Shown in pieces: positions 35,967 to 55,704 of a stretch of 64,000 nucleotides of DNA. Under the pieces are notes generated by a model. That model was not told the DNA's origin. It searched no databases and saw only the letters and a list, made by a program, of their open reading frames with translations. How positions within the stretch are numbered: the first letter of the stretch is position 1; each line of letters begins with the position of its first letter. Source of the DNA: an uncultured Aquimarina sp. (lineage in GTDB: Bacteria; Bacteroidota; Bacteroidia; Flavobacteriales; Flavobacteriaceae); assembly GCF_947495315.1 (NCBI RefSeq), contig NZ_CANLYD010000001.1, forward strand, positions 186,001-250,000, given 5' to 3'. The position numbers were made by a program, and so were the translations under genes.

Positions 35967-36004
35967 AATTAATCGCTAGAACATAGATGTTCTAGCGATT
36001 AATT
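35967..36004. other. 17-bp perfect hairpin without T tract
   Basis: AATTAATCGCTAGAACA pairs perfectly with TGTTCTAGCGATTAATT around TAGA. It lies between the start of the ACT gene and the end of the GNAT gene. No poly-T follows on either strand, so it may be a processing or operator site and not a standard terminator. Confidence 0.8.
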
Positions 36005-36090: not shown

Positions 36091-36939
36091 TTAGTTTTTA
36101 TTGAGTTGTAATTTCATTTCTAGCTGCTCCAGATTTTTTTCAAATCCTATTTTTTGTAAAAAAGCATCAACGGTTTTTGAGCTTTTATCTACATTAATAA
36201 TTGAGAATGTTGGCCCATAATCCTCTGTTAATTTAGACATTAGCGTTGAAGCGATTCTTCGTTGTCTAAAGTTTTTATCTATCGCGATTTGTTGCAATCT
36301 TTTATTATTTGGATTGTAAATAATATATCCGACTAGCTGATTTTTAATATAAGCACCCAATGAAATATTAGTATTCTTTAATTGATCGACAATATTATTA
36401 GAGTTTTGCCAAGTAGGAGTGATATCCCAAAATGATTGTATTAAACTCCAGTCATAATCTTGTAATTTATAAATTTCTAAATTGTTGTTTAAGTTAGAAA
36501 TAACTATTTCTCCTTTGTAGCAGTATAACTCTCTTTCAACTTTATAACCAGATTTTTTGTAAGACTTAATGGCTGGTGTATTCTTAGAAATGACCTCAAG
36601 GAATAATTTGTTAATTCCCTTTTCTTTTAAGACAGGTAAAATGAAATTATACATCTGTTTGGTTAATCCTAAACCTCTTTTCTTTGGGATAACTCCTGTC
36701 CCCCCGTTATATACTATTTTTTCATTATTGATTTTATCAAAACCATGTAATATAAAAGCAATTAGTTTTTTATGCTCAAAAACTCCAACTGATAAGTTAA
36801 GATGAACCTTATCGGTTAACATTTTTGAATTCAGTTGTTCTTCTGTTAATTGAAACGGAATAAAATAATCTGAAAACGATTCATTGAATACATTTAGAAT
36901 GTCTTTTGTATCTATTCCTATTAAAGTATTAATCTCCAT
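36091..36939 (-). CDS. Double GNAT N-acetyltransferase
   Basis: 282 aa, twice the length of a single GNAT domain. The first domain has the acetyl-CoA loop region VIPKKRGLGLTKQMYNF and the typical NTPAIKSYKKSGY strand end; the second has QIAIDKNFRQRRIASTLMSKL and DAFLQKIGFE. It acetylates an unknown amine. It is the last complete gene before the cassette-like region. Confidence 0.88.
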   Translation of the reverse strand: MEINTLIGIDTKDILNVFNESFSDYFIPFQLTEEQLNSKMLTDKVHLNLSVGVFEHKKLIAFILHGFDKINNEKIVYNGGTGVIPKKRGLGLTKQMYNFILPVLKEKGINKLFLEVISKNTPAIKSYKKSGYKVERELYCYKGEIVISNLNNNLEIYKLQDYDWSLIQSFWDITPTWQNSNNIVDQLKNTNISLGAYIKNQLVGYIIYNPNNKRLQQIAIDKNFRQRRIASTLMSKLTEDYGPTFSIINVDKSSKTVDAFLQKIGFEKNLEQLEMKLQLNKN

Positions 36940-37254: not shown

Positions 37255-37265
37255 GTTGGGTAACG
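37255..37265. repeat. 11-bp direct repeat, left copy
   Basis: GTTGGGTAACG, identical to 37819-37829 and exactly 564 bp away. The two copies bracket the gene at 37272-37805. It contains GTTGGGT, which fits the integron core pattern GTTRRRY. Confidence 0.9.
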
Positions 37266-37271
37266 TTTTTA

Positions 37272-37805
37272 TTATTCATACAATTCATTAATTTTTATAC
37301 TCTTTTTGTCTTTCAGATAATTGCTAACGAGTTTATTGTAGCAATTCAGATTTTTATAAACCATACATCCAAGGTGAAAATTTTCTATTCCGTATTTTTT
37401 TATGTTCTCCGATAAATTTCCCGAACCAACTAATCCGCTTGAAAAATACTTAACTTCATTATTCGTTAAATCAGTTTTGAATCGTTCGGTTATTTTTTTA
37501 CAATCTAACTCATGGTATTCGGTTAATACTTTTTCAGTTCTTTTCATTCCAAAATAATCCATAGTAAGTTGGGTTGTGAGAGTTATAAATACAATTCCAA
37601 TTCCAAGTGCAGTTAAAGTCAAAAATTTGCTTTTAATCTTTAAACTCTTTGGTAAGAAGAAGAATACAATGAGTAAAATAGCCAATACTATTGGAAAGTA
37701 AAACTCTTGATAAAAGAATTCATACATTTTGCTGTAACTGAAAACCCCCAATCCAATTCCAATTAGAGTTATAGTAAGAATTATGTTTTTCAGTTTTGTG
37801 TACAT
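37272..37805 (-). CDS. Small membrane protein of unknown function (cassette-like gene 5)
   Basis: 177 aa. Three N-terminal membrane segments (ILTITLIGIGLGVFSY, FPIVLAILLIVFFFLP, LTLTALGIGIVFITL) are followed by a soluble domain of about 100 residues with four Cys (LDCKKI, LGCMVY, LNCYNK). I do not recognise the family. The gene is exactly bracketed by the 11-bp GTTGGGTAACG direct repeat. Confidence 0.75.
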   Translation of the reverse strand: MYTKLKNIILTITLIGIGLGVFSYSKMYEFFYQEFYFPIVLAILLIVFFFLPKSLKIKSKFLTLTALGIGIVFITLTTQLTMDYFGMKRTEKVLTEYHELDCKKITERFKTDLTNNEVKYFSSGLVGSGNLSENIKKYGIENFHLGCMVYKNLNCYNKLVSNYLKDKKSIKINELYE

Positions 37806-37818
37806 TTCTGGTCAAAAT

Positions 37819-37829
37819 GTTGGGTAACG
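37819..37829. repeat. 11-bp direct repeat, right copy
   Basis: GTTGGGTAACG, same as 37255-37265; it forms the outer left end of the hairpin element at 37825-37926. Confidence 0.9.
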
Positions 37830-37926
37830 GTTTGTGTATAGTTAGTTGCGTGGTTCAACAACTAATTTAGCAAAAGGAAACCGAACGTAGAGAAAATCCG
37901 TAGCAATTAATTATACATGGTGTTGT
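37825..37926 (-). repeat. attC-like hairpin element 1 (after the VOC gene)
   Basis: An imperfect inverted repeat of 102 nt. The left arm starts TAACGGTTTGTGTATA and the right arm ends TATACATGGTGTTGT, with a paired GTTAGTTGC / GCAATTAAT inner part. On the minus strand it opens with ACAAC 21 nt after the VOC gene stop and closes with CGTTA 19 nt before the next gene start. Confidence 0.8.
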
Positions 37927-37947
37927 GTGCTGTCTTTTTTATTTATG

Positions 37948-38361
37948 TTAATTCCAAGGATTATATGAACCAAAATTCCAAATATGGTCTTCAATATCCT
38001 TGCATGTATAGCCACGACCACCATATTCTTGATCCTTAATTTCTAAAAGTATTTTTGCACCTTTGGCAACAGCATTTTTATAATGTTCATCAATTTTTTC
38101 AACAATTATATAGGGTGCTTGAGTATTCATTCCGTTCAAACTGTTGGGCGCTTTTACCAATTTGCCGTATTCGTTATTGTTTTCGGAACTTAACATAATC
38201 ATCGAATTTCTATATGTCAGTTGAGTATGTATAATTGTATTGTCTTCTCCTTGGACTACAAGGTGCTTTTCAAATCCGAATGCTGTACATAACCATTCGA
38301 TGGCTGTTTTTGCATTTTTATATTGAATTGTCGGGATAATACATGCTTTATTTGCTGTCAT
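37948..38361 (-). CDS. VOC superfamily (glyoxalase/PhnB-like) protein (cassette-like gene 4)
   Basis: 137 aa. Two beta-alpha-beta-beta-beta units of the vicinal-oxygen-chelate fold: ACIIPTIQYKNAKTAIEWLCTAFGFEK at the start and APYIIVEKIDEHYKNAVAKGAKIL in the second half, with the ending RGYTCKDIEDHIWNFGSYNPW typical of PhnB-like proteins. The substrate is unknown. It is followed at its 3' end by hairpin element 1. Confidence 0.9.
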   Translation of the reverse strand: MTANKACIIPTIQYKNAKTAIEWLCTAFGFEKHLVVQGEDNTIIHTQLTYRNSMIMLSSENNNEYGKLVKAPNSLNGMNTQAPYIIVEKIDEHYKNAVAKGAKILLEIKDQEYGGRGYTCKDIEDHIWNFGSYNPWN

Positions 38362-38450
38362 GATTTTATGGATTGCTTGTCCTAAAGTTACTAAAAATGT
38401 TTGTTTTTTGACTGGATTGATTCAGGTAAGTTCGGTTTATCCAGCTGCAT

Positions 38451-38620
38451 ACAACGGCAAATATATGAATCGGAGCAAGGCAAGTAAGCCAGAACCAATT
38501 GATTTATCTGCGCTATTTTTGTTTCTTATTTAATTTATGAAAATTTAGCGTCATTGCAAAAAGGAAAAGACCTTTCGACCTAGTATTAAACTTTGCTCTG
38601 ATTTTATATATAATGTTAAC
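38451..38620 (-). repeat. attC-like hairpin element 2 (after the carboxypeptidase-regulatory-like gene)
   Basis: The left arm ACAACGGCAAATATATGAAT-CGGAGCAA (38451-38478) pairs imperfectly with the right arm TTTGCTCTGATTTTATATAT-AATGTT (38592-38617). It is about 80 percent similar by eye over its full length to element 3. On the minus strand it begins about 15 nt after the stop of the gene at 38635. Confidence 0.85.
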
Positions 38621-38634
38621 CACAGTGATTTTTG

Positions 38635-39456
38635 TCAATATTTTACCGTGTAATTAAATCCAATTCCCACCGTATTTGATTTTGTCCATTCTCCTTGGCT
38701 GGTATATCTGTAAGCCATGGTATTCCCTAATAGTCCCGCTGAAAAGAATACCTCTTCCTCAGGTTTTTGGTTTTCCAATAATTCTATTGTAGAATAGAAA
38801 TCTTCTTCTACAACTATATCATATTTTTCAAGATCTAAGGTAAATTGTCCTTCTTTTACATTAATCGAGAATATTATATTTTCCTTGATTAATTTTTCGT
38901 TCGGTACTCCGTCTTTAATATTATAGAAATTAAGTCTAAAATTCACTTTTTTACTCGTGTTTGATATAACATTGGCGTGAAACTTTTTTATGTAGGTTGG
39001 GCTGTCTTTTATTTTGATTTTCACTCCAACTTCGTTACCAGCTACAGCGTTACGAAAAGCACCTCTCATTTTTTTAGATTTGGTTTTATTTCCAAGTGTT
39101 TTTTCTTTCAGTTTTTTGTTTGTAACAACAACTTCATTCAATTCCGTGATTTCTGGTAGAAGTTTTATTATTGGATTGGTTTTCAAAATTGCTACAAAAT
39201 CCTTTACGAGCATTGATTTTGGTTGATAGCCGATTGAGGATAATTTTATTGTGTCGTTCATTGATTTCGATGATATTTCGAATTCAAATTTGCCTTTGTC
39301 CGTTGAGACGGTTCCTTTGTCTTTTTTTATAATTCCAATATTGACATATGGAATGGGTTTGTCCGTCCTCACATCTTTGATAATTCCTTCTGTTGATATT
39401 TGTGCGAAAAGTGAAATACTGAAAAGAAAAAGTATAATATTGGTTCCTAATTTCAT
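38635..39456 (-). CDS. Exported protein with carboxypeptidase-D regulatory-like domain (cassette-like gene 3)
   Basis: 273 aa. Signal peptide about 1-18 (LFAQ). A CarboxypepD_reg-like beta sandwich follows (ISTEGIIKDVRTDKPIPYVNI...TDKGKFEFEI...SSIGYQP, about 20-90), then the ELNEVVVTNK linker seen in TonB-linked receptors, but no plug or barrel; the last 150 residues are a separate beta-rich domain that I do not recognise. It is probably periplasmic or surface-linked. Nearly identical hairpin elements (2 and 3) bracket it. Confidence 0.8.
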   Translation of the reverse strand: MKLGTNIILFLFSISLFAQISTEGIIKDVRTDKPIPYVNIGIIKKDKGTVSTDKGKFEFEISSKSMNDTIKLSSIGYQPKSMLVKDFVAILKTNPIIKLLPEITELNEVVVTNKKLKEKTLGNKTKSKKMRGAFRNAVAGNEVGVKIKIKDSPTYIKKFHANVISNTSKKVNFRLNFYNIKDGVPNEKLIKENIIFSINVKEGQFTLDLEKYDIVVEEDFYSTIELLENQKPEEEVFFSAGLLGNTMAYRYTSQGEWTKSNTVGIGFNYTVKY

Positions 39457-39630
39457 TTTTTTAGTTTAATTATCAAACTAAAGACAATAGTTTTTAATAA
39501 GTGTTACAATCGATATCCTTCATTACAATGTTTTAATTTCGGCAAATTTCAAGTTTAGTTATTGAAATTTAGTCACTTTATTTCCGTTAGCATGAGGAAT
39601 TAATAGGATTCTGATGTGAAGAATGTTTGC

Positions 39631-39794
39631 TAACGTTAAATATATGAATCGGAGCAAGGCAAACAAGCCTGAACCAATCGATTTATCTGCTCATTTTTAT
39701 TTCTTATTTAATTTATAAAAATCCAGAGCCATTGCAAAAAGTAAATGACTTTTGATCTAGCGTTAAATTGCTCTGATTTTGTATATGTTGTTGT
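39631..39794 (-). repeat. attC-like hairpin element 3
   Basis: The left arm TAACGTTAAATATATGAATC-GGAGCAA (39631-39657) pairs with the right arm TTGCTCTGATTTTGTATATG-TTGTTGT (39768-39794). It sits 6 nt after the stop of the gene at 39801 on the minus strand. The internal sequence GAACCAATCGATTTATCTGC is shared with element 2 (one or two changes). It fills most of the 344-nt gap 39457-39800. Confidence 0.85.
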
Positions 39795-39800
39795 AAACAG

Positions 39801-40913
39801 TTATATTTTTTCTAATGAACAATTTGTGTTTTTATTAAGGATATAAATATAACTTGAATTAAAGTCATCTTTGAATGTTAATTCAATTTCCCAAGCAGAA
39901 TTTTTAGCGTATTCGTGATTAATAGCATACTTTCCATTTCTACCTCTTGCAGCAAAAAGTTTTAATGGTAGACCAATTCCCCATTCGTGGTCTTCTTTTA
40001 AATTTTTTATTTCGATTAATTTAAGAGGTTTTCCTTTATTTATTATTTCAAATCCAGAGGCGGTACAATGAATTTTGATGTCAGGATCATTTAATAGTGA
40101 GTATTTGAAAGAATTATCGAAAACTAATCCATTCGAATTATCACTGAGTTGTTTTAATTGTTCATATGAGTTTGGAACAAACTTTTCGAAATGGTCTTTT
40201 GAAAACTTAAGAACTTTTAATTCTTTTTTGTTTTCCTCAAAAGTTTTATAAATAAAATAGGGTTGATCATAACGTTTTATTTTTTTTTCTTTACTATTCA
40301 AAACACCAATATGGATACTATCTCTAGTTGATCTAAGTACTTTCCCATAGCTAGTAGTGGAATAATCCCTGAGGTATAAATCAATATGCTTTTCTTTCAA
40401 TACTTTAAAAGATATAAAATAATTTTCATCTAAATTATTTACCATTTTTATCTTTTCATCATAAGTTGATTCAAGCCTATTGGATATAGTTTGAGAATAC
40501 TTATAATTATGCATTATAGGATTTAGTAAAAAATAGTTTAGTAGAAAAATTGCTAATGTAAGTGTAATAAATATTGGTCCAAAATACATATACCAAGGGC
40601 TTCTATCCTTTTTTATATATTTTTTTATCTTTTTAATGGAATTTTCTGTGGCATAATATAGTTTACCGTCTTTTTTTCGTAAAGTCCAATGTGTTTTGTT
40701 AGGAAAGATCGGTATGTATGCAATATGAAAGTATTGAACCCTTTTTTCTATTTTATTAGATTCTGTTTTTTTCGTAAATAGGAAACCAGAATTCCAAGGA
40801 TCTAGTTGGTCATATTTAACTGAAGATTTCATAGCATCTTCGTCAGTAATTTCAAACTTTGAAAGAGGGTAAGCTTTTAATCTACAGGTTCTATATCCAA
40901 TTATGGGAATCAT
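39801..40913 (-). CDS. Membrane-anchored protein of unknown function (cassette-like gene 2)
   Basis: 370 aa. One or two membrane segments lie near the middle of the N-terminal half (WYMYFGPIFITLTLAIFLLN). The part before it (GYRTCRLKAYPLSKFEI, YFHIAYIPIFPNKTHWTLRK) looks like a small cytosolic domain and the part after it is a large soluble domain without recognised motif. I cannot assign a family. Hairpin element 3 follows its stop codon closely and element 4 precedes its start. Confidence 0.75.
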   Translation of the reverse strand: MIPIIGYRTCRLKAYPLSKFEITDEDAMKSSVKYDQLDPWNSGFLFTKKTESNKIEKRVQYFHIAYIPIFPNKTHWTLRKKDGKLYYATENSIKKIKKYIKKDRSPWYMYFGPIFITLTLAIFLLNYFLLNPIMHNYKYSQTISNRLESTYDEKIKMVNNLDENYFISFKVLKEKHIDLYLRDYSTTSYGKVLRSTRDSIHIGVLNSKEKKIKRYDQPYFIYKTFEENKKELKVLKFSKDHFEKFVPNSYEQLKQLSDNSNGLVFDNSFKYSLLNDPDIKIHCTASGFEIINKGKPLKLIEIKNLKEDHEWGIGLPLKLFAARGRNGKYAINHEYAKNSAWEIELTFKDDFNSSYIYILNKNTNCSLEKI

Positions 40914-40971
40914 ATCTAGTTATTTTTAATTATATATAGAAAAATGTAGTCATACTCGTGAGTAATTGTGT

Positions 40972-41142
40972 ACAACGTTTAATATACGTGTCGTAGCGGA
41001 GCAAAATGTTACCTTGCTTTCCGGTTTTTCTTGCGCATTGGTTGCTAACTTTTACTTTCTGCAAGCATTGCGCCTTACCAAATATACAAGAACTATTCGA
41101 ATCATCACTTAACTGCTATGATCACATAGAATATAGTGTTGT
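40972..41142 (-). repeat. attC-like hairpin element 4
   Basis: The left arm starts ACAACGTTTAATATACGTGT and continues to GTAGCGGAGCA; the right arm CTGCTATGATCACATAGAAT-ATAGTGTTGT (41113-41142) pairs imperfectly with it. The CGGAGCAA block is shared with elements 2 and 3. It starts 10 nt after the stop of the gene at 41153 on the minus strand. Confidence 0.8.
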
Positions 41143-41152
41143 GGTATCGTTT

Positions 41153-41686
41153 TCAGCGAATTCTATTTACTTTCAATTCTGTAAATACTTTTTGAGTTCC
41201 GTGAATTTTTTTTCCGTATTTAATATCAATATAATAGTCTATTTGATATTCATTCAGAACTTCATCTATTTTGTCTTTTTTACTTTTTGCAAGATCAAAT
41301 TCTTGTTTGTATTCCCGTAGCATTTTATATGCAATTCCAAATGGCAAAAGTCCAATACCCATAATTGTGATATGGACATATTCAATAAACAAGCTGGGAT
41401 CTCTATCATCTAAAACATATTTCCCTAATACGTAACCATAAATAATAAATGCAAGTCCTATTAAAATAAAAATTCCTGAATATAGATATGTTAAGTTTTT
41501 TCGTTTTTTAACCTTATCATATTGAATATTTACAGTTTTTAATTTATTTTCAAACTTTTCATTAAGTTCAATTTTAGAACAAGTTTTATTAAATTCAGGT
41601 TTTCGACAAGTCAATTTGCAAGTCGTACCTTCTTTTAAGCTTGTTTTTTGATTATCACATAAATTACAGTGTCTCGCTAAGTCCAT
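41153..41686 (-). CDS. Membrane protein with N-terminal Cys-rich motif (cassette-like gene 1)
   Basis: 177 aa. The N-terminus has Cys7, Cys10, Cys23, Cys27 and Cys35 (HCNLCDNQ...TCKLTCRKPEFNKTC), which could form a zinc ribbon. A coiled coil is followed by two membrane segments (YLYSGIFILIGLAFIIYGYV, YVHITIMGIGLLPFGIAY) and a charged C-terminus. No family is recognised. It is the first of five same-strand accessory genes with hairpin elements. Confidence 0.75.
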   Translation of the reverse strand: MDLARHCNLCDNQKTSLKEGTTCKLTCRKPEFNKTCSKIELNEKFENKLKTVNIQYDKVKKRKNLTYLYSGIFILIGLAFIIYGYVLGKYVLDDRDPSLFIEYVHITIMGIGLLPFGIAYKMLREYKQEFDLAKSKKDKIDEVLNEYQIDYYIDIKYGKKIHGTQKVFTELKVNRIR

Positions 41687-41939: not shown

Positions 41940-43133
41940 TTAAGATTGTAATCCAGGAATTTCTACCACTTCGTTTACATCTTGATCATAATCCACTCCA
42001 GCTACCTTAAACCCAAATAGATTAAAGAAATCATTGCTGTATCCTTCTAGATCACCAATAGTTGCTAAGGTTTCTGTAGTAGCATTATCCCATAATTCTT
42101 TTATTTTAGCCTGAATATCTTCACGCATTTCCCAATCATCAACACGTATTCTACCTTGATCATCGGTTGCAATGTCGTTGCTACTATATAATCTATCCGC
42201 AAACAATCGTTGCATTTGCTCTATACAACCTTCGTGGATGTTATTTTCCTTCATTATTTTATATAATAGAGAAATATATAGAGGAATTACCGGAATTGCA
42301 GAGCTAGCTTGAGTAACTAGTGCTTTATTTACAGAAACATACGCTTTTCCGTTGATACTATTAAGTGATTTAGTAATGTCAAATGCAGTAGCTTCTAAAT
42401 GATCTTTAGCGCTGCCGATAGTTCCTTTTCGGTAAACAGGTTCAGTAAGTTTTGGACCGATATAAGAGTAGGCGACGGTTTTAGCTTCTGGAGCTAACAA
42501 ATTTTCTTTTTGTAACGCATTAATCCAGAACTGCCAATCTTCTCCACCCATTACGGTTACAGTGTTTTCTATGTCTTCTTCTGTGGCAGGTTCAATGGAT
42601 ATCTGAGATATGTCTCCGGTATGAAAATCTACTGTTTTATTTGTATACGGATCACCGATTGGTTTTAAAACGGATTTGTGTTTTACTCCGGTTTCCGGAT
42701 GCACTCGAACTGGTGATGCTAAACTATAAATAACTAAATCTATTTGTCCAAGATCTTGTTTGATGAGTTCTATGGTTTGTTGTTTAATTTCATTAGAAAA
42801 AGCATCTCCGTTAATACTTTTAGCATATAATCCGGCTTCATGTGCCTGCGTTTCAAAAGCAGCACTATTATACCATCCTGGAGAAGCTGGTCTGTTTGGT
42901 TTAGGGCGTTTTTCTAAAAACACACCAATTGTAGCAGCATTAGAACCAAATGCACTGGTTATTCTGGAGGCTAAACCAAAACCAGTAGAAGCACCAATGA
43001 CGAGTACTTTTTTTGGTCCGTTTATGGTTCCTTTGGATTTGATATAATCTATTTGGTTTATTACATTTTGTTCGCACCCTTTTGGATGTGCAGTTAGACA
43101 AATGAATCCGCGAGTTCTAGGTTCTATAATCAT
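41940..43133 (-). CDS. fabV: Enoyl-ACP/trans-2-enoyl-CoA reductase FabV
   Basis: 397 aa, the normal FabV length (longer than FabI). The N-terminus MIIEPRTRGFICLTAHPKGC, the NAD-binding VLVIGASTGFGLASR and the active-site Y-X8-K pair (Tyr234 and Lys243 in VYRKGTIGSAK) are all present. It catalyses the last reduction of the fatty-acid elongation cycle with NADH in the cytosol. FabV enzymes are usually little affected by triclosan. It stands alone between its terminator and a strong inverted repeat upstream. Confidence 0.96.
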   Translation of the reverse strand: MIIEPRTRGFICLTAHPKGCEQNVINQIDYIKSKGTINGPKKVLVIGASTGFGLASRITSAFGSNAATIGVFLEKRPKPNRPASPGWYNSAAFETQAHEAGLYAKSINGDAFSNEIKQQTIELIKQDLGQIDLVIYSLASPVRVHPETGVKHKSVLKPIGDPYTNKTVDFHTGDISQISIEPATEEDIENTVTVMGGEDWQFWINALQKENLLAPEAKTVAYSYIGPKLTEPVYRKGTIGSAKDHLEATAFDITKSLNSINGKAYVSVNKALVTQASSAIPVIPLYISLLYKIMKENNIHEGCIEQMQRLFADRLYSSNDIATDDQGRIRVDDWEMREDIQAKIKELWDNATTETLATIGDLEGYSNDFFNLFGFKVAGVDYDQDVNEVVEIPGLQS

Positions 43134-44613: not shown

Positions 44614-45024
44614 TTAAAAGGGTAATAAATCTGGCTCTACATATTGTGTCTTGGCCTTTTCAGAATTAAATATATCAAAACCGTAATGAGAGTCCAGCAA
44701 ATCTTTGAAATTATATTTCAATATTGGGAACTCGGTAATGAAATCCTGGAAACTGTTTGATTTAGATTTTTGCACAAAATGATTCACGGTTTTAACTGCC
44801 GCAATGGTAAGGGTTTTGTTAAATTTATCTGTTTTGCCTAATTGAGTCACATAGGCTAAAATTTGATTGGAAATTTCTTTACAAGCAGTATCAACCCCAT
44901 ATTTAGAAACATGTATCCACGCTAATCGCAAGTGAGCTTCATGACTAAACAAAGAGGGGTCAAGATTACCAGCTTTAAATTGTTTTTCGAATTCTGAATC
45001 GCTGAGATCTATATTAGTTTTCAT
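44614..45024 (-). CDS. Small cytosolic protein of unknown function
   Basis: 136 aa, all-helical in appearance, without signal or membrane segment. Strongly patterned segments such as FSHEAHLRLAWIHVSKYG, LTIAAVKTVNHFVQKS and KTQYVEPDLLPF look like a conserved family, with several His residues (HEAH, NHF, SHYG) that could bind metal. I do not know a function. It sits 53 nt upstream of the Crp-like gene on the same strand. Confidence 0.75.
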   Translation of the reverse strand: MKTNIDLSDSEFEKQFKAGNLDPSLFSHEAHLRLAWIHVSKYGVDTACKEISNQILAYVTQLGKTDKFNKTLTIAAVKTVNHFVQKSKSNSFQDFITEFPILKYNFKDLLDSHYGFDIFNSEKAKTQYVEPDLLPF

Positions 45025-45085
45025 TACTCTGGATATTAGGTAGTTGAAATATAATAATCATTTTTATTATTATTGATAAATGTGA

Positions 45086-45706
45086 TTAGCTTTTCTGATT
45101 TGTAACCGTAAACATAGGCAGTGAAACTTTATATTTTACGACTAATAAACGTATAATAATAATCAATAGCGTGGTAGTTATATATATGATATTGACAGGT
45201 ACGTTTAGTGAATACAAGATCATAAAACAAATTCCTCCAGCTATAGAGACTGTAGCATAAACTTCTTTTCTGAAAATCACCGGAATTTCATTACACAAAA
45301 TATCTCTGATCACTCCTCCAAAACATCCAGTCATGGTTCCTAACGCAACAGATACAATAGGATCAAGATCCGTTTGTATTCCTGTTTCTACTCCCATAAT
45401 CGTAAAAATCCCTAGTCCTATTGTATCAAACAGGAAAAGGGATTTTTTGAGGTAATCCAATTTATTCCTAAAGATGATGGATACACCGGTAACGCCCCCA
45501 ATTAGATATAAATTTATAGTGTTTTGCATCCATGATACCGGTGTTGCTCCTATAAGTACATCTCTTAGTGTTCCTCCACCAATGGCAGTAACAAAAGCGA
45601 TAATAAAGATTCCGAAAAGATCCAATCTTCTGTTCATAGCGCTCAATGCTCCTGAAATGGCAAAGGCAATTGTCCCCAAAATATCCAAAGTATCGAAAAG
45701 TGTCAT
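45086..45706 (-). CDS. TRIC-type cation channel family protein (UPF0126/YadS-YicG)
   Basis: 206 aa from the ATG at 45704-45706 (an upstream TTG was not used). Seven membrane segments in a duplicated half-structure, each half with the family's G-G-x-(L/I)-R-D motif: AIGGGTLRDVLIG and CFGGVIRDILCNE. Prokaryotic members form trimeric monovalent-cation channels; a related subgroup imports glycine, so the transported solute is open. Confidence 0.9.
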   Translation of the reverse strand: MTLFDTLDILGTIAFAISGALSAMNRRLDLFGIFIIAFVTAIGGGTLRDVLIGATPVSWMQNTINLYLIGGVTGVSIIFRNKLDYLKKSLFLFDTIGLGIFTIMGVETGIQTDLDPIVSVALGTMTGCFGGVIRDILCNEIPVIFRKEVYATVSIAGGICFMILYSLNVPVNIIYITTTLLIIIIRLLVVKYKVSLPMFTVTNQKS

Positions 45707-45749
45707 TTTTCTCAATTTTGGAATAAATGTAGGATATCTAATCCGAATT

Positions 45750-46076
45750 TTAATTTTTCGATAGATATTTAGTGTTTTTCCCTTCTATTTCCATTTGTAT
45801 GATTCCTGTTTGCATTTTTAGTGTATCTGGTATGATTCCGTATCTAAGTCCGATTCCTTTTACTAGAAAATAACGAATATAATCTCTTGCTAGTTTTATA
45901 TTGTCGAAAAGATAGGTTCCTCCGATAGTTTTGGTTTCTGTATTTATATAATAATATTTTCTAATAAGCCCTTCTACATTCGCCATCGTATCCATATGAT
46001 TGCTAGAAATTTTCTGTAACCTTTGCTGTGATAAATTTGATTTAAATTGAACATGGACTATTGCTTTTTCCTCCAC
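45750..46076 (-). CDS. YdhR-like putative monooxygenase/ABM-fold protein
   Basis: 108 aa from a GTG start at 46074-46076; no ATG is available upstream. The sequence AIVHVQFKSNLSQQRLQKIS...MANVEGLIRKYYYIN...TIGGTYLFDNIKLARDYI is the pattern of the YdhR-type dimeric alpha/beta barrel (ferredoxin-like) family, annotated as monooxygenase-like without a proven substrate. Confidence 0.75.
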   Translation of the reverse strand: MEEKAIVHVQFKSNLSQQRLQKISSNHMDTMANVEGLIRKYYYINTETKTIGGTYLFDNIKLARDYIRYFLVKGIGLRYGIIPDTLKMQTGIIQMEIEGKNTKYLSKN

Positions 46077-46120
46077 AAGTTTCTTGATTATGGGATTAAG
46101 TATTTCGTTTTAGATTTTAT

Positions 46121-46540
46121 TTAATTGAGGATTGATCTAGTTTTTCTAGACATGAATAATGAAATAACAATAACAAAAGTTGCATTAACTTTGACGATCA
46201 TCTTGCTTATTCCGAAAGCATTTATACTATCTTTCGATAGGTATAAAGAGATAATAAGTATAGCTGCGAATAGAGTTATCACAAATATTTCGATTAATTC
46301 ATTTGAAAAATGCAAATCAGACTTGGTTTGTAAAATATCTTTAGAAAAAAGTATCATGTTTATGATAATGTAAAATAAGGTTGCGTTATATATTTCTAAG
46401 TATAGCCACTCAATTGTACTTGACGTTCCGGAAGAAACAATTGAGAATAATAGCAAACTATAGGTAATAGCGCTAAATAATGACCTTCTATTAAGGAATT
46501 GAACCCAATACTTTTTAGATTTTTTTAACAGTGTATTCAT
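46121..46540 (-). CDS. Small membrane protein of unknown function
   Basis: 139 aa from the ATG at 46538-46540; the longer frame starts with TTG and adds 15 polar residues. Four membrane segments are visible (LFSAITYSLLLFSIV, ATLFYIIINMILF, LIEIFVITLFAAILIISLYL, IVKVNATFVIVISLFM). No family is recognised. Confidence 0.65.
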   Translation of the reverse strand: MNTLLKKSKKYWVQFLNRRSLFSAITYSLLLFSIVSSGTSSTIEWLYLEIYNATLFYIIINMILFSKDILQTKSDLHFSNELIEIFVITLFAAILIISLYLSKDSINAFGISKMIVKVNATFVIVISLFMSRKTRSILN

Positions 46541-46610
46541 AACTTGTTTTTTAATAGAAATTGTTAGGGTTTTTGTTTTGTCCAAAAACCCAGAACAATT
46601 TCATCACGAC

Positions 46611-47387
46611 TCAACTATTTTTTTTATTGATATCTCTGAAAAGCATCATATCTACAATTTTGCCAGATCCTCCGGAATAAAATCCGGATTCTCTGGGATG
46701 TACTTTTGGGTTGTTAAAAGTGCCAAATAACATATCGATAAAGGATAGGTCAGAATAGTTATAGGCATGCACCCCTTTTTTATGATGGTAGGTGTGTCCT
46801 TCCGGTCGCTGAACCAGATATCCAATCCAATGTGGAGTGATGATATTGCAGTGCTGTACAATAGTAAAAAAATTAGTAATCAAAATGATAATTACTACAG
46901 CTTTAGGGTCAAATCCAGCGATAATAGTAAAGCAGAAACTCCCTAGAAATGTAAATCCGATCATATCCATAGGACTGAAGTAGAATGCACTATAAGAATC
47001 CATACGTTCTATGCTATGGTGCATCTGATGGAAGACTTTCCATAAGAAGTCACTTGCGTGCATTGCTCTATGCCAGGCGTATAATGCGAATTCGTATATA
47101 AGAAACCCAAAAGCTGCTCCGCCAAAAACACCTAATCCTGTAAGATCAAAAAATTGGTATTCTATTAAATAGTTGTCCCAAATTAGTGGTAGATAAGAGG
47201 AAAGTAGGAAGAATACAGCAAAAGAGATTAATCCTTTTACTTTCCAGTATTTTACTTTTGGTAATTGACGTGCTGGAGCTACTGCTTCCCAAATCATCAG
47301 TGCAATATACATCCCTATAATAACCAGAGATATAGGATCCAGTACGATTGCTGATACAGATGGTAAATTCATAAATAACTCTTTCAT
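46611..47387 (-). CDS. Sterol desaturase/fatty acid hydroxylase family protein
   Basis: 258 aa, membrane-bound, with about five membrane segments. The di-iron His clusters are complete: WHRAMH (HX3H), HQMHHS (HX2HH) and HTYHHKKGVH (HX2HH). Members hydroxylate or desaturate lipids; in bacteria substrates include fatty acids, carotenoids and ether lipids. The carotenoid operon is 12 kb away, so no functional link can be claimed. Confidence 0.9.
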   Translation of the reverse strand: MKELFMNLPSVSAIVLDPISLVIIGMYIALMIWEAVAPARQLPKVKYWKVKGLISFAVFFLLSSYLPLIWDNYLIEYQFFDLTGLGVFGGAAFGFLIYEFALYAWHRAMHASDFLWKVFHQMHHSIERMDSYSAFYFSPMDMIGFTFLGSFCFTIIAGFDPKAVVIIILITNFFTIVQHCNIITPHWIGYLVQRPEGHTYHHKKGVHAYNYSDLSFIDMLFGTFNNPKVHPRESGFYSGGSGKIVDMMLFRDINKKNS

Positions 47388-47754
47388 TACCCTATATTTT
47401 TATGATGTAACCCATACTTCAATTCATTTTTTCTTCTTACCCAGTAATTTTTAAGTGTAAGTAAATCTTCATTTTTTTTGTTCCTCAACATTTTCCAAGT
47501 TTTTAAGAATTAATAATTTGTTTTGTTTTCCGGAATCAAAAGTATAGAAGAGGATAAGTCATTGCTAATAAATGGAGTATACGGTAAGTGGGCAGTCTTT
47601 TATTAAAAGTAGACAGGAATGTTTATTATGCTAATAGGAGGTAGACAGCAGGTGAACAATTATTTTTAAAACACTTATTTTCAGTGTTTTGTGTTTGTGT
47701 CTTTTAGAAATGTATTTTCATGAAATACTTAAAAACAGCACAGGGCATGCTGGA
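47388..47754. other. Intergenic region between sterol desaturase and TPR/LuxR genes
   Basis: No gene is seen. An 8-bp hairpin AAAACACT / AGTGTTTT (47668-47690, loop TATTTTC) lies 65 nt after the stop of the TPR/LuxR gene and is a candidate weak terminator. Confidence 0.5.
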
Positions 47755-49440
47755 TTATTCGTTTTCTAACGCTAATAAATACGTGAAGATTTCTTGATTT
47801 TGATGTAATTCGAGCTTTTTACGTAGTCGGTAACGTGCAGTTTTAGCACTCTCAGGAGAAATACCAAGGATACTTGCAGTTTCTTTAATATTAAGATTTA
47901 GTCTAGTCAGCGAACAAATTTTTAGATCGTTTGCACTTAATTCTGGATGTTTAGCTTTTAGTTTTGTATAAAAACCAACGTGTACTTCTTCAAAAAAGCG
48001 TTTAAAATCTTCCCAATCTTTATCAATGCTTAAGTTTTGTTGGATGGTTTTGTTTAGTTGATCTATTAATTTATCTTTTTCTTTTGGGGTTGATTTTTTT
48101 GCCAGTTGAGCTGTACTTTGCAAATTTTGCAATAATTCATTTTTTTGAACAAAATTGATTGCATAGGAGGTAAGTTCTTTATTTTTAAACTCAAGTTGCT
48201 GTTTTAGCTCTTGTTGTTTGAGTTTTGCATTTTCGAGTGCTTGTTGGTTTAGCGCTTCTTTGGATTGTAAAAGCTCATTACTTTTTTCTAATAGCTCTCT
48301 GTTTTTTCTGGAACGTTGTTTTACATTGGTTAGAATTAGAAAACTACTTATCAATAATACCAGAATACCAAAGGCAAGGCTCCATTTAATTAAAACATCT
48401 GTTTTTTCTTTTTCCTGAAGGAATTCTAGTTCTTTATCTTGCTGTTCCAGTTGATTTTTAAACTCGAGATAGGCAATCTGTTTAGATTTTTCAGTATTAA
48501 AAATTGAATCTTTTAAGTTTGAGTAGAAATCATAAAAAACTAATGCTTCTTTAGGTTTTTCTTGTAGTGTTCTAAGCTCTTTTAGTTCTTCGTAGGCAAG
48601 CAATTCATATTTCTTTAGGCTATTGTTTTTAGCTCTATTAAGTCCTAAATTAAGATGAATGTCTGCAGCCTCAAAGTTGTTTTCTAGCCGCAGTAGTTTA
48701 CCGTATTGGATTAGGTTACTGATCATACCATCTTCGTCCCCTATCTTTTTACCTACAGAAATGGATCTTTCTATATGATATTTTGCTTGAGCAAGCTCCT
48801 TTTCTTTTAAATACAGAATTCCTAAACGATTATGAGCTTCTGCGATTCCATATTGAAAATTATTCTTAGTGTGGAGTTTTAGAGCATCCGATATATATAT
48901 TCGTGCATCATTAAGGTTACCTTTTTCGATATGAATAGTTCCTATTTTTGTAAATGTAGTAGCAATACGACCTGAGAGGTTTAATGCGGTAAAATTATCG
49001 ATCGCATCGTTATAGTTTTTTAATGCCTTGTCATATTCTTTAAGATCTGCATACACCATTCCGATATTAAGCATAGTATTTGCAATACCTTCTTGATCCT
49101 TGTTGTTTTGAAATTTTTTCTGAGATTGAGTAAGATATAGTAATGCTTCGTTCTGATTTCCTTGTGCCCAATATGCTACTCCAATAATGCGATTTGCCAC
49201 TGCAATACCGGCATCATATGTTAATTTTTTAGAGAGCTCTAATGCTTCTTTTCCGTATTTTAAAGATTCGTTAGGATCGATTATCCAATATTCGAAACCA
49301 GTTTCATTTAATAAATCAACCTTTTTAGTATCCTCAGAAGTATGCGAATTTAATTTTAATCTAAGGCTATCTACTTTTGTGTTTTGAGAATATATACCCG
49401 AATTAATAATTATAAAGATAAGAAAGAGAAGGTGTCGCAC
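47755..49440 (-). CDS. TPR sensor protein with one membrane segment and LuxR-type HTH
   Basis: 561 aa from a GTG start at 49438-49440. Signal peptide (about 1-19, GIYSQ); five to six TPR units (about 40-330); a membrane segment (WSLAFGILVLLISSFLIL, about 352-370); a coiled coil (about 380-440); and a C-terminal helix-turn-helix (LSANDLKICSLTRLNLNIKE...SAKTARYRLRKKL). Such one-component proteins with a periplasmic TPR sensor and a cytosolic DNA-binding end are frequent in Bacteroidota. The gene is transcribed away from trxB, with a 163-nt shared upstream region. Confidence 0.88.
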   Translation of the reverse strand: MRHLLFLIFIIINSGIYSQNTKVDSLRLKLNSHTSEDTKKVDLLNETGFEYWIIDPNESLKYGKEALELSKKLTYDAGIAVANRIIGVAYWAQGNQNEALLYLTQSQKKFQNNKDQEGIANTMLNIGMVYADLKEYDKALKNYNDAIDNFTALNLSGRIATTFTKIGTIHIEKGNLNDARIYISDALKLHTKNNFQYGIAEAHNRLGILYLKEKELAQAKYHIERSISVGKKIGDEDGMISNLIQYGKLLRLENNFEAADIHLNLGLNRAKNNSLKKYELLAYEELKELRTLQEKPKEALVFYDFYSNLKDSIFNTEKSKQIAYLEFKNQLEQQDKELEFLQEKEKTDVLIKWSLAFGILVLLISSFLILTNVKQRSRKNRELLEKSNELLQSKEALNQQALENAKLKQQELKQQLEFKNKELTSYAINFVQKNELLQNLQSTAQLAKKSTPKEKDKLIDQLNKTIQQNLSIDKDWEDFKRFFEEVHVGFYTKLKAKHPELSANDLKICSLTRLNLNIKETASILGISPESAKTARYRLRKKLELHQNQEIFTYLLALENE

Positions 49441-49603
49441 AGTATTAGTTGATTTGTTTACAAATATATATGTGTAGAGAGTTATTGTTTTTCATTTTAG
49501 TATTTATTTAAGATGTCTATAAGCTTATAACAATTCTTAATAACTTTAGTGTAAGGTTTCTCTTCAAATTGCTACTTTTACATCAGATAAACCGAAAAAG
49601 ATT

Positions 49604-50572
49604 ATGTCAGATACAATAGAAAGAATAAAATGCTTGATTATAGGCTCAGGACCGGCAGGATATACTGCAGCAATTTATGCAGCACGTGCAGATCTTAAAC
49701 CCATTATGTATACTGGTATGGAACCAGGAGGACAGTTAACTACCACTACAGAGGTAGATAATTTTCCTGGATATCCTGAAGGTATTGATGGCCCAACAAT
49801 GATGGTACAACTACAACAGCAAGCAGAACGTTTTGGTACAGAAGTACGAATCGGAATGGTTACTGCCGTAGAATTCAGTAAAGAAGTAGGAGGAATCCAT
49901 AAAGTTACCGTAGATAATACAAAAGAAATTGAAGCCGAAGCTGTTATTATTTCAACAGGTGCTACTGCTAAATATTTAGGACTACCTAGTGAACAGAAAT
50001 TACGTGGAGGTGGAGTTTCTGCCTGCGCGGTTTGTGATGGATTCTTTTATAAAGGCCAGGATGTTGCTATTGTTGGTGCCGGAGATACTGCAGCAGAAGA
50101 AGCTACGTATCTTTCTAATATTTGTTCTAGCGTTACTATGTTGGTGCGTAAAGATTATATGAGAGCGTCTAAAGCTATGCAACATCGTGTAAATAATACA
50201 CCTAATCTTAAAGTATTATATAATACCGAAGTTGATGAGGTTGTTGGAGACCAAGTAGTGGAAGGGTTGCGTATGGTGAATAACCAAACAGGAGAGAAAT
50301 CTGAAATTGCTATTACTGGATTGTTTATTGCGATTGGCCATAAACCGAATACAGATATTTTTAAAGGTCAGATCGATATGGATGATACCGGATATATTAT
50401 TACAGAAGGTAAATCTACTAAAACCAATATTCCAGGTGTATTCGCATCAGGTGATGTTCAGGATAAAGAATATAGACAAGCAGTGACTGCAGCTGGTACT
50501 GGTTGTATGGCGGCATTAGATGCAGAAAGATATCTAGCCACTGTAGAAACTAGCGAGGAAGTTTCTGCATAA
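49604..50572 (+). CDS. trxB: Thioredoxin-disulfide reductase
   Basis: 322 aa. FAD-binding GSGPAGYTAA (14-23), redox pair CAVC (141-144), NADPH-binding GAGDTAAEEA, and the C-terminal FAD motif GVFASGDV are all intact. It reduces thioredoxin with NADPH in the cytosol. A rho-independent terminator follows at 50599. A TACTTTTA element at 49574 may be part of the promoter. Confidence 0.97.
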   Translation: MSDTIERIKCLIIGSGPAGYTAAIYAARADLKPIMYTGMEPGGQLTTTTEVDNFPGYPEGIDGPTMMVQLQQQAERFGTEVRIGMVTAVEFSKEVGGIHKVTVDNTKEIEAEAVIISTGATAKYLGLPSEQKLRGGGVSACAVCDGFFYKGQDVAIVGAGDTAAEEATYLSNICSSVTMLVRKDYMRASKAMQHRVNNTPNLKVLYNTEVDEVVGDQVVEGLRMVNNQTGEKSEIAITGLFIAIGHKPNTDIFKGQIDMDDTGYIITEGKSTKTNIPGVFASGDVQDKEYRQAVTAAGTGCMAALDAERYLATVETSEEVSA

Positions 50573-50598
50573 TAGATATTAAATCGAAAAATACTTTT

Positions 50599-50630
50599 AG
50601 ACCTGACAGTTTTTAAAATTCGTCAGGTCT
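50599..50630 (+). terminator. Terminator between trxB and the GIN-domain gene
   Basis: Stem AGACCTGAC / GTCAGGTCT around a 14-nt loop, then ACTATTTTTA. It lies 26 nt after the trxB stop and could also end the convergent gene at 50648. Confidence 0.85.
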
Positions 50631-50647
50631 ACTATTTTTAAGAATTT

Positions 50648-51508
50648 CTATTTTAATTTGAGTCTACTCGGACTATAGTCAATTTTTTTCTTGTACAAAG
50701 TAGCTTCGTTAGCAAACATCGTCATATTAATTGTAGGTTCTCCTAGTAAATAGATTTCTGTTTCATTTGTAGCTTCAATAGTAATTTCTTCATTTGCTAA
50801 CACATAGCAATCACTAGAACCTTCAGCAATAATAGACGTTTTACCTGATGTCAATTTTTCACCATAAAAATCTGTATCTCCATCTGCTCTTACCAGCATT
50901 GATTTAACATCTCCTTCTAATTTTGCATATCCTTTTTGATATAAATCTATCTTTAGACTATCGGCGGTTATGATTCCTTTTAATTCTGAATTTTCGTTTA
51001 CCTGATAAAATGCCTGTTTTGAGTCAACGTGTAAGTCAAGAGTTGCTTTTCCATTAGAAATACTTGTTATGCTGCCTGTATCTACGGATAAAAACACTTC
51101 TGAATTATCATTCGCTTCGATACTTAATTCTGAGGATTTTATAGGTGCCAATGATTTAAGGTTAATCTTGTCATACGCACTTATTTTTTTTAATTCTGAA
51201 GCGTATGAGATCGTTATGTTTAATGCTTTGGCGCGCCGGAAGAGTTTAGTTGCTCTTATTTTTAACACACTATCCTGTATTTCTACTTCTATAAACTCCT
51301 GAAGATTGCTATCCGCTTCAATCTTTATTATATGATCACTATCTTCATCTATAGAAACTTCGAAGTTATCATATAACTCGATCGTATGAAAAGCGTCTAC
51401 GATTTTTTCTTCGGTCATGACAATTTTATTGCCTTTAATCTTTTCTTTCTGAGCATGCAGGTTTCCTAAAGCGAAAATTGAAAATAGTGATAGCAGAAGT
51501 GGTCTCAT
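50648..51508 (-). CDS. Exported GIN-domain (DUF2807) protein
   Basis: 286 aa. Signal peptide about 1-19 (NLHAQ). The mature part is a repetitive beta-helix of the head-GIN/DUF2807 type: FHTIELYDNFEVSIDEDSDH, then rungs such as LSIEANDNSEVFLSVDTGS and TSIIAEGSSDCYVLANEEI. These proteins are common in Bacteroidota and of unproven role, probably periplasmic. It is convergent with trxB and is the most downstream gene of the envelope module. Confidence 0.85.
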   Translation of the reverse strand: MRPLLLSLFSIFALGNLHAQKEKIKGNKIVMTEEKIVDAFHTIELYDNFEVSIDEDSDHIIKIEADSNLQEFIEVEIQDSVLKIRATKLFRRAKALNITISYASELKKISAYDKINLKSLAPIKSSELSIEANDNSEVFLSVDTGSITSISNGKATLDLHVDSKQAFYQVNENSELKGIITADSLKIDLYQKGYAKLEGDVKSMLVRADGDTDFYGEKLTSGKTSIIAEGSSDCYVLANEEITIEATNETEIYLLGEPTINMTMFANEATLYKKKIDYSPSRLKLK

Positions 51509-51636
51509 TTTGTGTGTGGTTTATTTTTTAAACACTGTTTTTTATGTTTAAGTATATCCATTCGTTAAATTTATTTATAAAAAGACTGATTTCAGAAAAA
51601 AACGTTACATATATTCAGATTTCAAAAGGTATATCG

Positions 51637-51673
51637 AAAAGTATAACCTCTTAATTTAAGAGGTTATACTTTT
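51637..51673. terminator. 16-bp perfect hairpin, probable terminator
   Basis: AAAAGTATAACCTCTT pairs perfectly with AAGAGGTTATACTTTT around AATTT. It lies 44 nt after the stop of the NTF2-like gene (minus strand) and ends in TTTT on both strands. Confidence 0.85.
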
Positions 51674-51717
51674 ACTATATTCAAAGAGGTACGTAAAGAA
51701 ATGGTGAGACATTATTT

Positions 51718-52503
51718 TTATTTCACCTTCTTAGCTTCTTCTGCGATTTGCCCATTTTCTCGAACAATCATTTTGGATATAATCCCTTTGTCATCTTTTA
51801 TAAATTCAAAAGTTAGCGGACTTTGTTTATGAAAAAATAGGTTCTCTTTTTGAGGGTAAACAATGGCTTCCATTTTACCAGCTTTTATCTCTAACAGATT
51901 GTCCTTTTTAGTTATTGTTACGGTCCCTGTTTGTGGTGCTTGGTAAGTCCCTAAGTATTGATTCAAGATTTCATCGGATAAAGAGATTTCTTTTTTATCT
52001 GCGTTCTGGGGAGCAGGTTGGTGATCATAACTTAATGCTCTAGTCATTTTCCATTGCTCATTTTTATGCTGCCAGACGTGCGTGAATTTTGCAATCTCAG
52101 CAAGTCGTTCTGCTTTACCCTTTTCTGAAACATAAAAGACGTGTTCGCCGGTAATGATGGCTCCGTAATTATTAAGAGGAAATACATCGACACTTCCTTC
52201 TACCACTTCTCGTCGTACCCTGGGGTTTTCTGGATTACATAATCCATTTTCTACGCTGGACATCATTTTAGCAAGTCCAGATGTTAATCCTCCTTTATCA
52301 TGATAGAACTCAAAATCTTCTACAAAAAATGTTTTGAATGTGTTGATATCACAGCTGTTATAGGATTTCCAGAATTCGCCGTCTAATTCAAGGATAGTGT
52401 TCTTTAGATTTTTCGGAACTTCTGATTTTTGGGCATAGCTACTATATCCGGAAGCTACTATAATACATATGAATAGGATTAAATCCTTAAGTTTTGATGT
52501 CAT
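51718..52503 (-). CDS. Exported NTF2-like (DUF4440-type) protein
   Basis: 261 aa. Signal peptide ends YSSYAQ. Residues about 40-165 form an NTF2-like cone (ELDGEFWKSYNSCDINTFKTFFVEDFEFYHDKGG...VFYVSEKGKAERLAEIAKFTHVW), followed by a second beta domain (LNQYLGTYQAPQTGTVTITKKDNLLEIKAG) like the DUF3471-type tail also seen in the S41 peptidase at 24004. No catalytic role is evident. Its leader shares a block with the GIN and padR leaders. Confidence 0.8.
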   Translation of the reverse strand: MTSKLKDLILFICIIVASGYSSYAQKSEVPKNLKNTILELDGEFWKSYNSCDINTFKTFFVEDFEFYHDKGGLTSGLAKMMSSVENGLCNPENPRVRREVVEGSVDVFPLNNYGAIITGEHVFYVSEKGKAERLAEIAKFTHVWQHKNEQWKMTRALSYDHQPAPQNADKKEISLSDEILNQYLGTYQAPQTGTVTITKKDNLLEIKAGKMEAIVYPQKENLFFHKQSPLTFEFIKDDKGIISKMIVRENGQIAEEAKKVK

Positions 52504-52507
52504 TTTT

Positions 52508-52543
52508 TCGTTTTTTGATTCGCCTGGATCAGACAGATTGATG
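52508..52543 (-). repeat. Shared leader element, NTF2-gene copy
   Basis: The plus-strand block (T)CGTTTTTTGAT-CGCCTGGATC-AGACAGATTGAT lies directly before the NTF2-like start codon and matches the leader at 53487-53524, with a decayed central palindrome. Confidence 0.65.
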
Positions 52544-52615
52544 AATGTTGATATGATTGATAATCCATCTATAGAATAAGATGGTGGTAAAAAATTGAGA
52601 ATGATTAAAACATAA

Positions 52616-52692
52616 GAACCACCCGAAAAGTATAATATCTAAATAACTTGTCTGTCAACAAACAATGGGTACTTTTCTGGTGGTCCTATTTT
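52616..52692. terminator. Long imperfect hairpin after the GIN lipoprotein gene
   Basis: GAACCACCCGAAAAGTA pairs with TACTTTTCTGGTGGTCC (two mismatches) across about 35 nt; a run of T follows on the plus strand. It lies 48 nt after the stop of the gene at 52740. Confidence 0.6.
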
Positions 52693-52739
52693 TTTGGTTG
52701 GTAGTGGTTGGTTGAATTGATTGGTTAGGTTATTGATTA

Positions 52740-53459: not shown

Positions 53460-53486
53460 AATAGTGTGATTTAATTTATTAAACTG

Positions 53487-53524
53487 TTCGTTTTTTGATC
53501 CGCCTTAGGCGGACAGATTGATTA
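53487..53524 (-). repeat. Shared leader element with 15-bp palindrome, GIN-gene copy
   Basis: It contains TCCGCC-TTA-GGCGGA (53499-53513), a perfect palindrome, flanked by TTTTTTGA and ACAGATTGATTA. The same flanks, without the palindrome, occur at 55667-55700 upstream of padR, and with a decayed one at 52508-52543. Confidence 0.75.
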
Positions 53525-55644: not shown

Positions 55645-55666
55645 AAAACTGGTTTTTAAAAAGTTA

Positions 55667-55700: not shown

Positions 55701-55704
55701 GATG

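Follow-up and report, generated by a model that had tools for sequence, protein, structure and literature searches.

The 64,000-nucleotide stretch of DNA from an uncultured Aquimarina sp. analysed here (contig NZ_CANLYD010000001.1, positions 186,001 to 250,000; hereafter the window) carries at positions 37255-41686 what is probably an old array of integron-like gene cassettes. Five successive minus-strand open reading frames (ORFs) extend across 37272-41686, with ends at 41153, 39801, 38635, 37948 and 37272, and four of them are followed by an attC-like hairpin on the same strand, whose coordinates were measured on the sequence from AAC to GTT. Cassette 1 carries a gene for a 177-aa protein (41153..41686) and is closed by site 1 (40974..41140, 167 nt); its original 5' start box has apparently been worn away. 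It is followed by cassette 2 (gene 39801..40913, 370 aa; site 2, 39632..39792, 161 nt), cassette 3 (gene 38635..39456, 273 aa; site 3, 38453..38617, 165 nt), cassette 4 (gene 37948..38361, 137 aa; site 4, 37826..37924, 99 nt) and cassette 5 (gene 37272..37805, 177 aa), which starts with GTTACCCAAC at 37828. Searches against Pfam attributed a CarboxypepD_reg-like domain to the product of cassette 3 and a glyoxalase family to that of cassette 4, and at E 0.001 no family was found for the genes ending at 41153, 39801 and 37272. The row of minus-strand genes with mixed products and the hairpins behind four of the five had both been recognised in the first-pass annotation of this DNA; the ORF ends agree and the measured hairpins of 99-167 nt lie near the lengths reported there. 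Downstream of the gene of cassette 5 no trace of a hairpin was found, only a lone CGTTACCCAAC box on the minus strand (37255..37265) which stands at the expected place of the fifth hairpin and copies the start of cassette 5. The end of this cassette is thus a repeat of its own start box, as if recombination had struck a GTT within the far box.

Sites 2 and 3 are 85-87% identical across two stretches of 67 and 61 nt. Folded singly, the three long sites of the window have ordinary stability (z -0.63, 0.01 and -0.86); energy is therefore unconvincing and was dropped as evidence, and it is comparison that lifts the sites above chance. A BLAST search of the genome with site 4 returned nine matches at E <1e-4 besides itself, plus weaker ones. 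A covariance model built from eight related sites of the same genome gave site 4, which lay outside its training set, 77.6 bits (model R1). The eight-site alignment was used solely for building the model, its covariation being too weak for evidence when compared with shuffles (paired cells, 76/500; changes on both sides, 32/500; additional pair types, 11/500). With a reporting cut-off of E 0.01, matches were found in 16 of 28 genomes, namely 15 of the 16 genomes of the genus, this one included, and one of 12 others; G010 is the sole genome of the genus without a match at this cut-off. Clustered matches share a strand, except for a few weak opposite ones overlapping stronger ones. A covariance search, as had been proposed for a check, revealed a family of sites widespread in the genus and clustered in one orientation.

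Sites were also located by a scanner requiring, on the antisense strand, AACG, a stem and GTT, without use of the boxes described below; some sites are missed or misplaced by this rule. It was applied to 34 stretches chosen around hits or recombinases rather than genome-wide, some of which overlap so that some sites are counted twice, and yielded 177 intergenic and 40 in-gene sites. Hairpins lying mostly far from gene 3' ends, an outcome named beforehand as speaking against cassettes, were not seen: in these stretches chosen around hits, an intergenic site and the gene preceding it share a strand in 160 of 177 cases, and 173 of the sites have the orientation that predominates in their stretch. 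This distribution bears on the suggestion, also made in the first-pass annotation, that the hairpins are a MITE-like family (miniature inverted-repeat transposable elements). Similar hairpins are indeed scattered over many places of one genome, as would be expected of MITE-like or of REP-like (repetitive extragenic palindromic) repeats landed behind genes; such repeats would be independent of gene orientation, which is contradicted by the counts above, and the boxes found here pair across a whole gene rather than across the hairpin. We consider this explanation scarcely credible.

In the model that we propose, a cassette would be a short segment, usually of one gene, opening with GTT and six variable bases (GTT+N6) and ending in an attC-like stretch composed of the complement of N6, AAC, an imperfect stem and the next GTT; in a circular cassette the two boxes would meet to form a full site. 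For 120 consecutive site pairs, we asked how well the start of each cassette pairs with the box that precedes the hairpin closing that same cassette; some pairs are counted twice through the overlap of loci L108 and L147. A complementary run of at least 4 beyond GTT was found in 77 of the 120 (mean run 4.37), as against 13 of 120 (mean 1.13) with the box of the adjacent next cassette as a control; 200 shuffles of the starts gave a mean run of 0.89 and a maximum of 1.19. Five real stretches contain 17, 11, 10, 9 and 7 boxed cassettes on the array strand, and 20 dinucleotide shuffles of them, four per stretch, contain none except for one cassette in one shuffle. Window positions 45001-64000, serving as a control, gave no boxed pair. 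In the window array, the start of cassette 2, GTTGTACAC, is alike at 8/9 positions to the reverse complement of its own far box, GTTGTAAAC, and that of cassette 4, GTTGTATGC, matches its far box, GTTGTGTGC, at 8/9; the boxes of cassette 3 (GTTAGCAAA and GTTAACCAC) agree poorly.

Among 115 boxed cassettes on the main strand, complementarity stops after 9 nt in 43, after 10 nt in 71 and after 13 nt in one, 9 being the required minimum. A match that spans the whole gene makes sense if both ends once met in a circle. The two features by which integron cassettes are recognised, a boundary at G^TT and a far box that is the complement of the start of the same cassette, are thus both present; the starts read GTTR in 110 of the 115 and GTTRRRY in 11, and do not follow the classical RYYYAAC/GTTRRRY cores. 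The boxes also bear on a reading of the hairpins as terminators of transcription or as RNA elements belonging to small genes, in keeping with their position just past stop codons. Scanning the window against Rfam at gathering scores gave zero matches, the conserved G-T pairs are on the antisense strand and not on the transcribed one, and neither box matches across a gene nor gene-less cassettes would be expected of terminators, so that this reading has next to nothing to recommend it.

The anatomy of the cassettes is that of integrons. Based on predicted genes, 87 of 111 boxed cassettes contain one gene, 15 two, three more than two and six none, and 123 of 127 cassette genes lie on the strand of the site. 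By the median, the start codon lies 25 nt after GTT, the stop 11 nt before AAC and the cassette is 864 nt long; site lengths cluster near 60, 124, 160 and 188 nt. In silico, the antisense (bottom) strand is the more stable in 95 of 109 distinct sites, with one tie and 13 less stable, and folds better in 13 of 14 sites of the Aquimarina genome with one tie. The cargo is diverse: 71 Pfam families were found in 115 cassette proteins, none in more than two of them. A PADLOC search of the same proteins returned 154 families; among the 25 listed, many were methylase models that overlap and each match one protein. No defence cargo is claimed.

Evidence that cassettes have moved comes from a gene-less cassette of 276 nt, eight full copies of which, 98.6-100% identical, occur in the stretches fetched from this genome (L062 9389-9664, 14345-14620 and 16634-16909, and others in L164, L163 and L055). 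Every full copy starts with GTTAAATC after a differing flank and ends in CACAAC, followed by GTT and a differing box, and one stands immediately behind a recombinase gene. Partial copies exist too, three of them at contig ends; C2, C19 and C31 end in the element. Apparently the cassette consists of a short hairpin unit of ~43 nt and a longer hairpin unit, and its first 48 nt occur alone at L057 11192-11239, as if the short unit had moved singly. Because of the box complementarity and of the copies bounded at G^TT by unrelated flanks, we regard the cassettes as probably moving as units, with an integron-like crossover at G^TT. In G011, one cassette occurs twice in the same array (L154 8898-9679 and 13400-14181, 99.4% identical), with only a C-terminal recombinase remnant nearby.

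Cassettes of the window were also traced in other genomes. Counting its own genome, 9 of 52 genomes of the genus have a homologue of the cassette 1 gene, whose product is 88% identical to that of a cassette gene in the recombinase-headed array of G014. DNA matches of cassette 1 to G438 (89%), G014 (82%) and G422 (68%) stop 1-3 nt past the GTT of site 1; those to G423 and G013 are partial, G450 has the hairpin piece only, and no DNA match was found in G456 and G452 despite their homologues. The homologue in G438 starts with GTTGTGGTTC, 8/9 nt as predicted by the box of site 1, GTTGTGGTA, a start that is gone in the window. Cassette 4, whose gene has homologues in 2 of the 52 genomes, its own included, is 91.5% identical in DNA to G421 from the CCGTT boundary (CCGTA in G421) to within the hairpin. 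The locus was further compared between two anchors, a GNAT gene at 36091-36939 and a gene at 41940..43133 on the minus strand which we take to be fabV-like. Gene content between them varies among genomes. A fixed content would have spoken against cassettes; content does differ between species, and this comparison is of one genome per species. In the close relative G006 a different gene occupies the same locus; over 526 of 675 nt it shares 79% identity with a boxed cassette that lies near the recombinase in the array of G001. Across six fabV-flank stretches of relatives the scanner found two intergenic sites in total, and in one of the six (L047, from G006) it missed the site of the cassette gene present there. 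Beside that gene lies a 459-aa ORF (L047 5694-7073) which we presume to be an IS110-family transposase, a placement resembling the known arrangement of IS1111-attC elements.

A tyrosine recombinase near a cluster of the hairpins, which the first-pass annotation had advised looking for, heads a cassette array in the same genome, on contig C23, where a gene for a 397-aa protein is followed by site-closed genes in its own orientation. Recombinase genes head such same-orientation arrays in several genera. Of the 395 genomes of the class, 68 have relatives at E <=1e-70, in 50 of 197 genera, and arrays were checked in part of these 68. Twenty loci of the class were fetched, 16 with closer and four with more distant relatives, and a site was counted as boxed with a run of at least 6. 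Ten of the 16 closer loci (L197, L200-L203, L205, L208 and L210-L212) have boxed sites behind the recombinase; three of the six others end within 400 bases, and L204 has 15.7 kb and no array. The more distant loci L213-L216, in which arrays were not expected, did not serve as negative controls, since three of the four (L214, L215 and L216) carry boxed sites. A scan of 80 loci in named genomes, sorted after the array results were seen, found at least two boxed cassettes behind 10 of 12 full-length Bacteroidota relatives with at least 3 kb downstream, and behind 2 of 28 other Xer-like genes (L245, also from Bacteroidota, and L279). The Elusimicrobium locus L279, counted by the script as an array, has a very long branch in the tree described below and was taken as chance. 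Named carriers with at least three boxed cassettes include Winogradskyella ursingii, Seonamhaeicola aphaedonensis, Aequorivita sinensis, Algibacter onchidii and Flavobacterium aciduliphilum. On the Persicobacter plasmid CP012862.1 (L218), a full-length recombinase relative (44.5%) adjoins a relative (42%) of the zinc-finger gene described below, with no boxed array within 15 kb behind it.

The array recombinase lacks the insert of ~42 aa that characterizes IntI and, by its sequence, is not an IntI. IntI1 and 10 IntI-type proteins have 131 aa between the motifs GLRxxE and HxLRH; wherever a full-length Bacteroidota relative showed both motifs, the distance was 89-90 (94 in L231). Three proteins scored 189, 203 and 187 bits with the integron integrase model TIGR02249, below its cut-off of 265, and three proteins scored 222.1, 226.4 and 220.2 bits with the XerA model NF040815, above its cut-off of 220. 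In a tree of 97 proteins, the 11 IntI form one clade (100/100) and the array recombinases fall elsewhere, 33 of the 34 array-scored ones (all except L279) lying inside a Bacteroidota clade of 59 (94/92). Of the 26 clade members that are not array-scored, 17 have less than 3 kb of DNA behind them. A subset tree of 35 proteins also placed 14 array proteins in one group (97/96). In an approximately unbiased (AU) test, a single clade of IntI and array recombinases was not rejected (p-AU 0.142), and a separate origin is therefore possible and not proven.

An AlphaFold2 model of the Winogradskyella recombinase (pLDDT 83.6, pTM 0.56) matched XerA with a Z score of 25.1 and an rmsd of 14.2 over 253 residues, the domains being turned, and Vibrio cholerae IntI4 (PDB 2a3v) with a Z score of 21.8 and an rmsd of 3.3 over 257 residues. 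The array recombinase has no counterpart of the extra segment of IntI4 (chain 173-248, against query 294-327), so that the sequence alignment of the two falls into two parts. In contrast to XerA and XerC-D (PDB 5hxy, 4a8e), the protein is linked to cassette arrays with many different sites and carries an extra N-terminal domain of ~80 aa (residues 1-80, L219 9989-10228), predicted to form a small beta-beta-alpha-beta-beta-alpha fold. This domain is scarcely probed by the whole-model fold search. Its own profile gave a single PDB match up to E 1, the HARP domain of SMARCAL1 (E 0.63), and Pfam searches of eight members gave HARP in two (0.0014 and 0.035), DUF5710 in three (best 2.6e-7) and nothing in two, a hint at most of a HARP- or DUF5710-like domain. 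In L062 8147-8240, the recombinase gene begins with three direct DNA repeats (MEPIYKYIT x3) and the ORF list gives a TTG start, which could act as a slippage switch.

These results have to be weighed against the possibility that the arrays are ordinary integron cassettes, or clusters of attC sites lacking integron integrases (CALINs), of a classical IntI that has disappeared or works from another locus, and that the linked XerA-like gene is a passenger. The boxes, folding bias and cassette anatomy are as in integrons, and among 10 IntI-type genes in the named scan, none of which has boxed cassettes on its own strand, two have them on the opposite strand in the classical layout (L291, with three boxes of the same kind, and L293, with two, less clear). 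A true IntI above the cut-off was, however, found in only one of the 395 genomes of the class, and the 14 matches of TIGR02249 in the Aquimarina genome all fall below it. Recombinases without the IntI insert head arrays in several genera, and one copy of the 276-nt cassette lies directly behind such a gene, which makes the passenger hypothesis improbable.

Two further features recur at the head of arrays. Upstream of the recombinase, a divergent partner gene of ~110-125 aa with two CxxC-like pairs, hereafter the zinc-finger partner, was found in 12 of the 16 closer loci of the class, in 10 of 11 loci of the genus or order (broken in L157) and in none of four distant loci. Relatives of it were also present at 13 of the 81 loci of the named scan, some 31-42% identical beside more distant recombinases. 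In the 28 genomes, a close paralogue (at least 55%) adjoins the recombinase or its remnants in every case whose surroundings were examined, which leaves aside one small fragment in G011; a more distant paralogue (32-44%) is found generally in the genus. A structure search with a model of the partner gave no PDB match at E <=0.001. Behind the recombinase stop codon lies an inverted repeat of variable sequence, followed by the first G^TT, often as CAATTG^TT. In 48 such tails, each compared with 60 mononucleotide shuffles, at most one shuffle was equally good in 29 and more were in 8; in the other 11, the script found no inverted repeat. This repeat is a candidate attI.

A second alternative is that a housekeeping Xer recombinase moves the cassettes and that the linked gene is merely a regulator or relic. 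Xer-like genes are present in all 28 genomes searched. G002, G004, G005 and G012 have sites, yet only distant Xer-like genes and no close relative of the linked one; in G011 the recombinase is present as fragments only, and both arrays lie near nothing but a C-terminal remnant. Against this stand the catalytic motifs, retained in 18 aligned array recombinases, and the conservation of both the partner gene and the inverted repeat where arrays begin, and we judge a housekeeping enzyme unlikely to be responsible. The same five genomes also count against the integron-like system that we propose, as do other observations. The strand bias in folding averages -2.0 kcal/mol, close to the absolute difference that random segments show on average (1.5). 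The run was below 4 in 43 of the 120 pairs, through missed sites, misplaced AAC or real wear, and in the window itself 8/9 positions match in two of the three testable cassettes, with a poor match in one. Boxed pairs arise by chance, with one in five fabV-flank stretches and one in window positions 1-33000, and the opposite strand of arrays has 0-10 per stretch, as expected because the sites are near-palindromic. Nine non-array recombinases of the Bacteroidota clade have more than 3 kb behind them (L153, L204, L209, L218, L236, L240, L241, L253 and L254). Finally, the evidence is comparative throughout, genomes were compared between species with one sampled per species, and many arrays are interrupted by contig ends.

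Taking these points into account, we put at roughly 0.9 the probability that the hairpins and genes belong to an integron-like gene-cassette system of Bacteroidota, in which the window array would be an old outlier that has no integrase. The sequence itself shows the boxes, the boundaries, the orientation, the linkage to a recombinase and the repeated insertion of one cassette; the activity of the enzyme, the choice of strand and the roles of the N-terminal domain and the zinc-finger partner we infer. The antisense strand of a site would fold, the linked XerA-like tyrosine recombinase would cut it at G^TT, and the cassette would be exchanged with another site or with a site next to the recombinase gene, at the inverted repeat that often precedes CAATTG^TT. 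Both suggestions of the first-pass annotation, integron-type cassettes and a different recombination system, hold on the sequence evidence. The resemblance to sedentary chromosomal integrons and CALINs extends to mostly one-gene cassettes in one orientation with a hairpin site, G^TT boundaries, complementary boxes within the cassette, better folding of the antisense strand, ORF-less cassettes and integrase-less arrays. The differences lie in a recombinase without the IntI insert, placed by the tree elsewhere than the IntI clade and oriented as the cassettes, its extra domain and zinc-finger partner gene, a candidate attI that is an inverted repeat of changing sequence and the rarity of GTTRRRY.

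The same gene order is known from spirochaete integrons, the Treponema intI being oriented as the cassettes; those integrases are IntI by their IntI domain, unlike the array recombinase described here. Passages of PMC9668308 describe typical Spirochaetota IntIs as generally reverse-oriented and the IntI-specific domain as a defining feature, and a passage of PMC2426708 has IntI selected by the same domain. In part of PMC8138268, the insertion is described as incompletely conserved in an integron-like subgroup, yet essential for integron function. Because such definitions require the IntI-specific domain, the present system is not an integron by membership, although it would work like one. In an excerpt of the large survey PMC9024848, Salinibacter has the single complete integron recorded for Bacteroidetes proper, and an excerpt of PMC8618304 lists Bacteroidota among integron-bearing phyla. 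Among titles and abstracts of open-licence PMC articles, none was found that describes this system; preprints lay outside this scope.

A more ambitious hypothesis is that of a second integron: cassette capture from folded DNA would have arisen separately from IntI, from a XerA-like recombinase in Bacteroidota, the hairpins being recognised by the fused N-terminal domain, with its weak hints of HARP-like fork binding, and the zinc-finger partner instead of the IntI insert. We hold this tentatively, a little short of even odds. Integron surveys seek IntI and classical attC sites and, if the integron-like system proposed above is borne out, miss a major phylum's own widespread cassette system. 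The domain held necessary for integron recombination would then be dispensable, a second enzyme would be available beside IntI for comparing the recognition of folded single strands, and the system could become a new tool for cassette shuffling.

Outside the array, an intergenic segment of the window at 35967-36004 contains a perfect inverted repeat of 18 bp with a 2-nt spacer.

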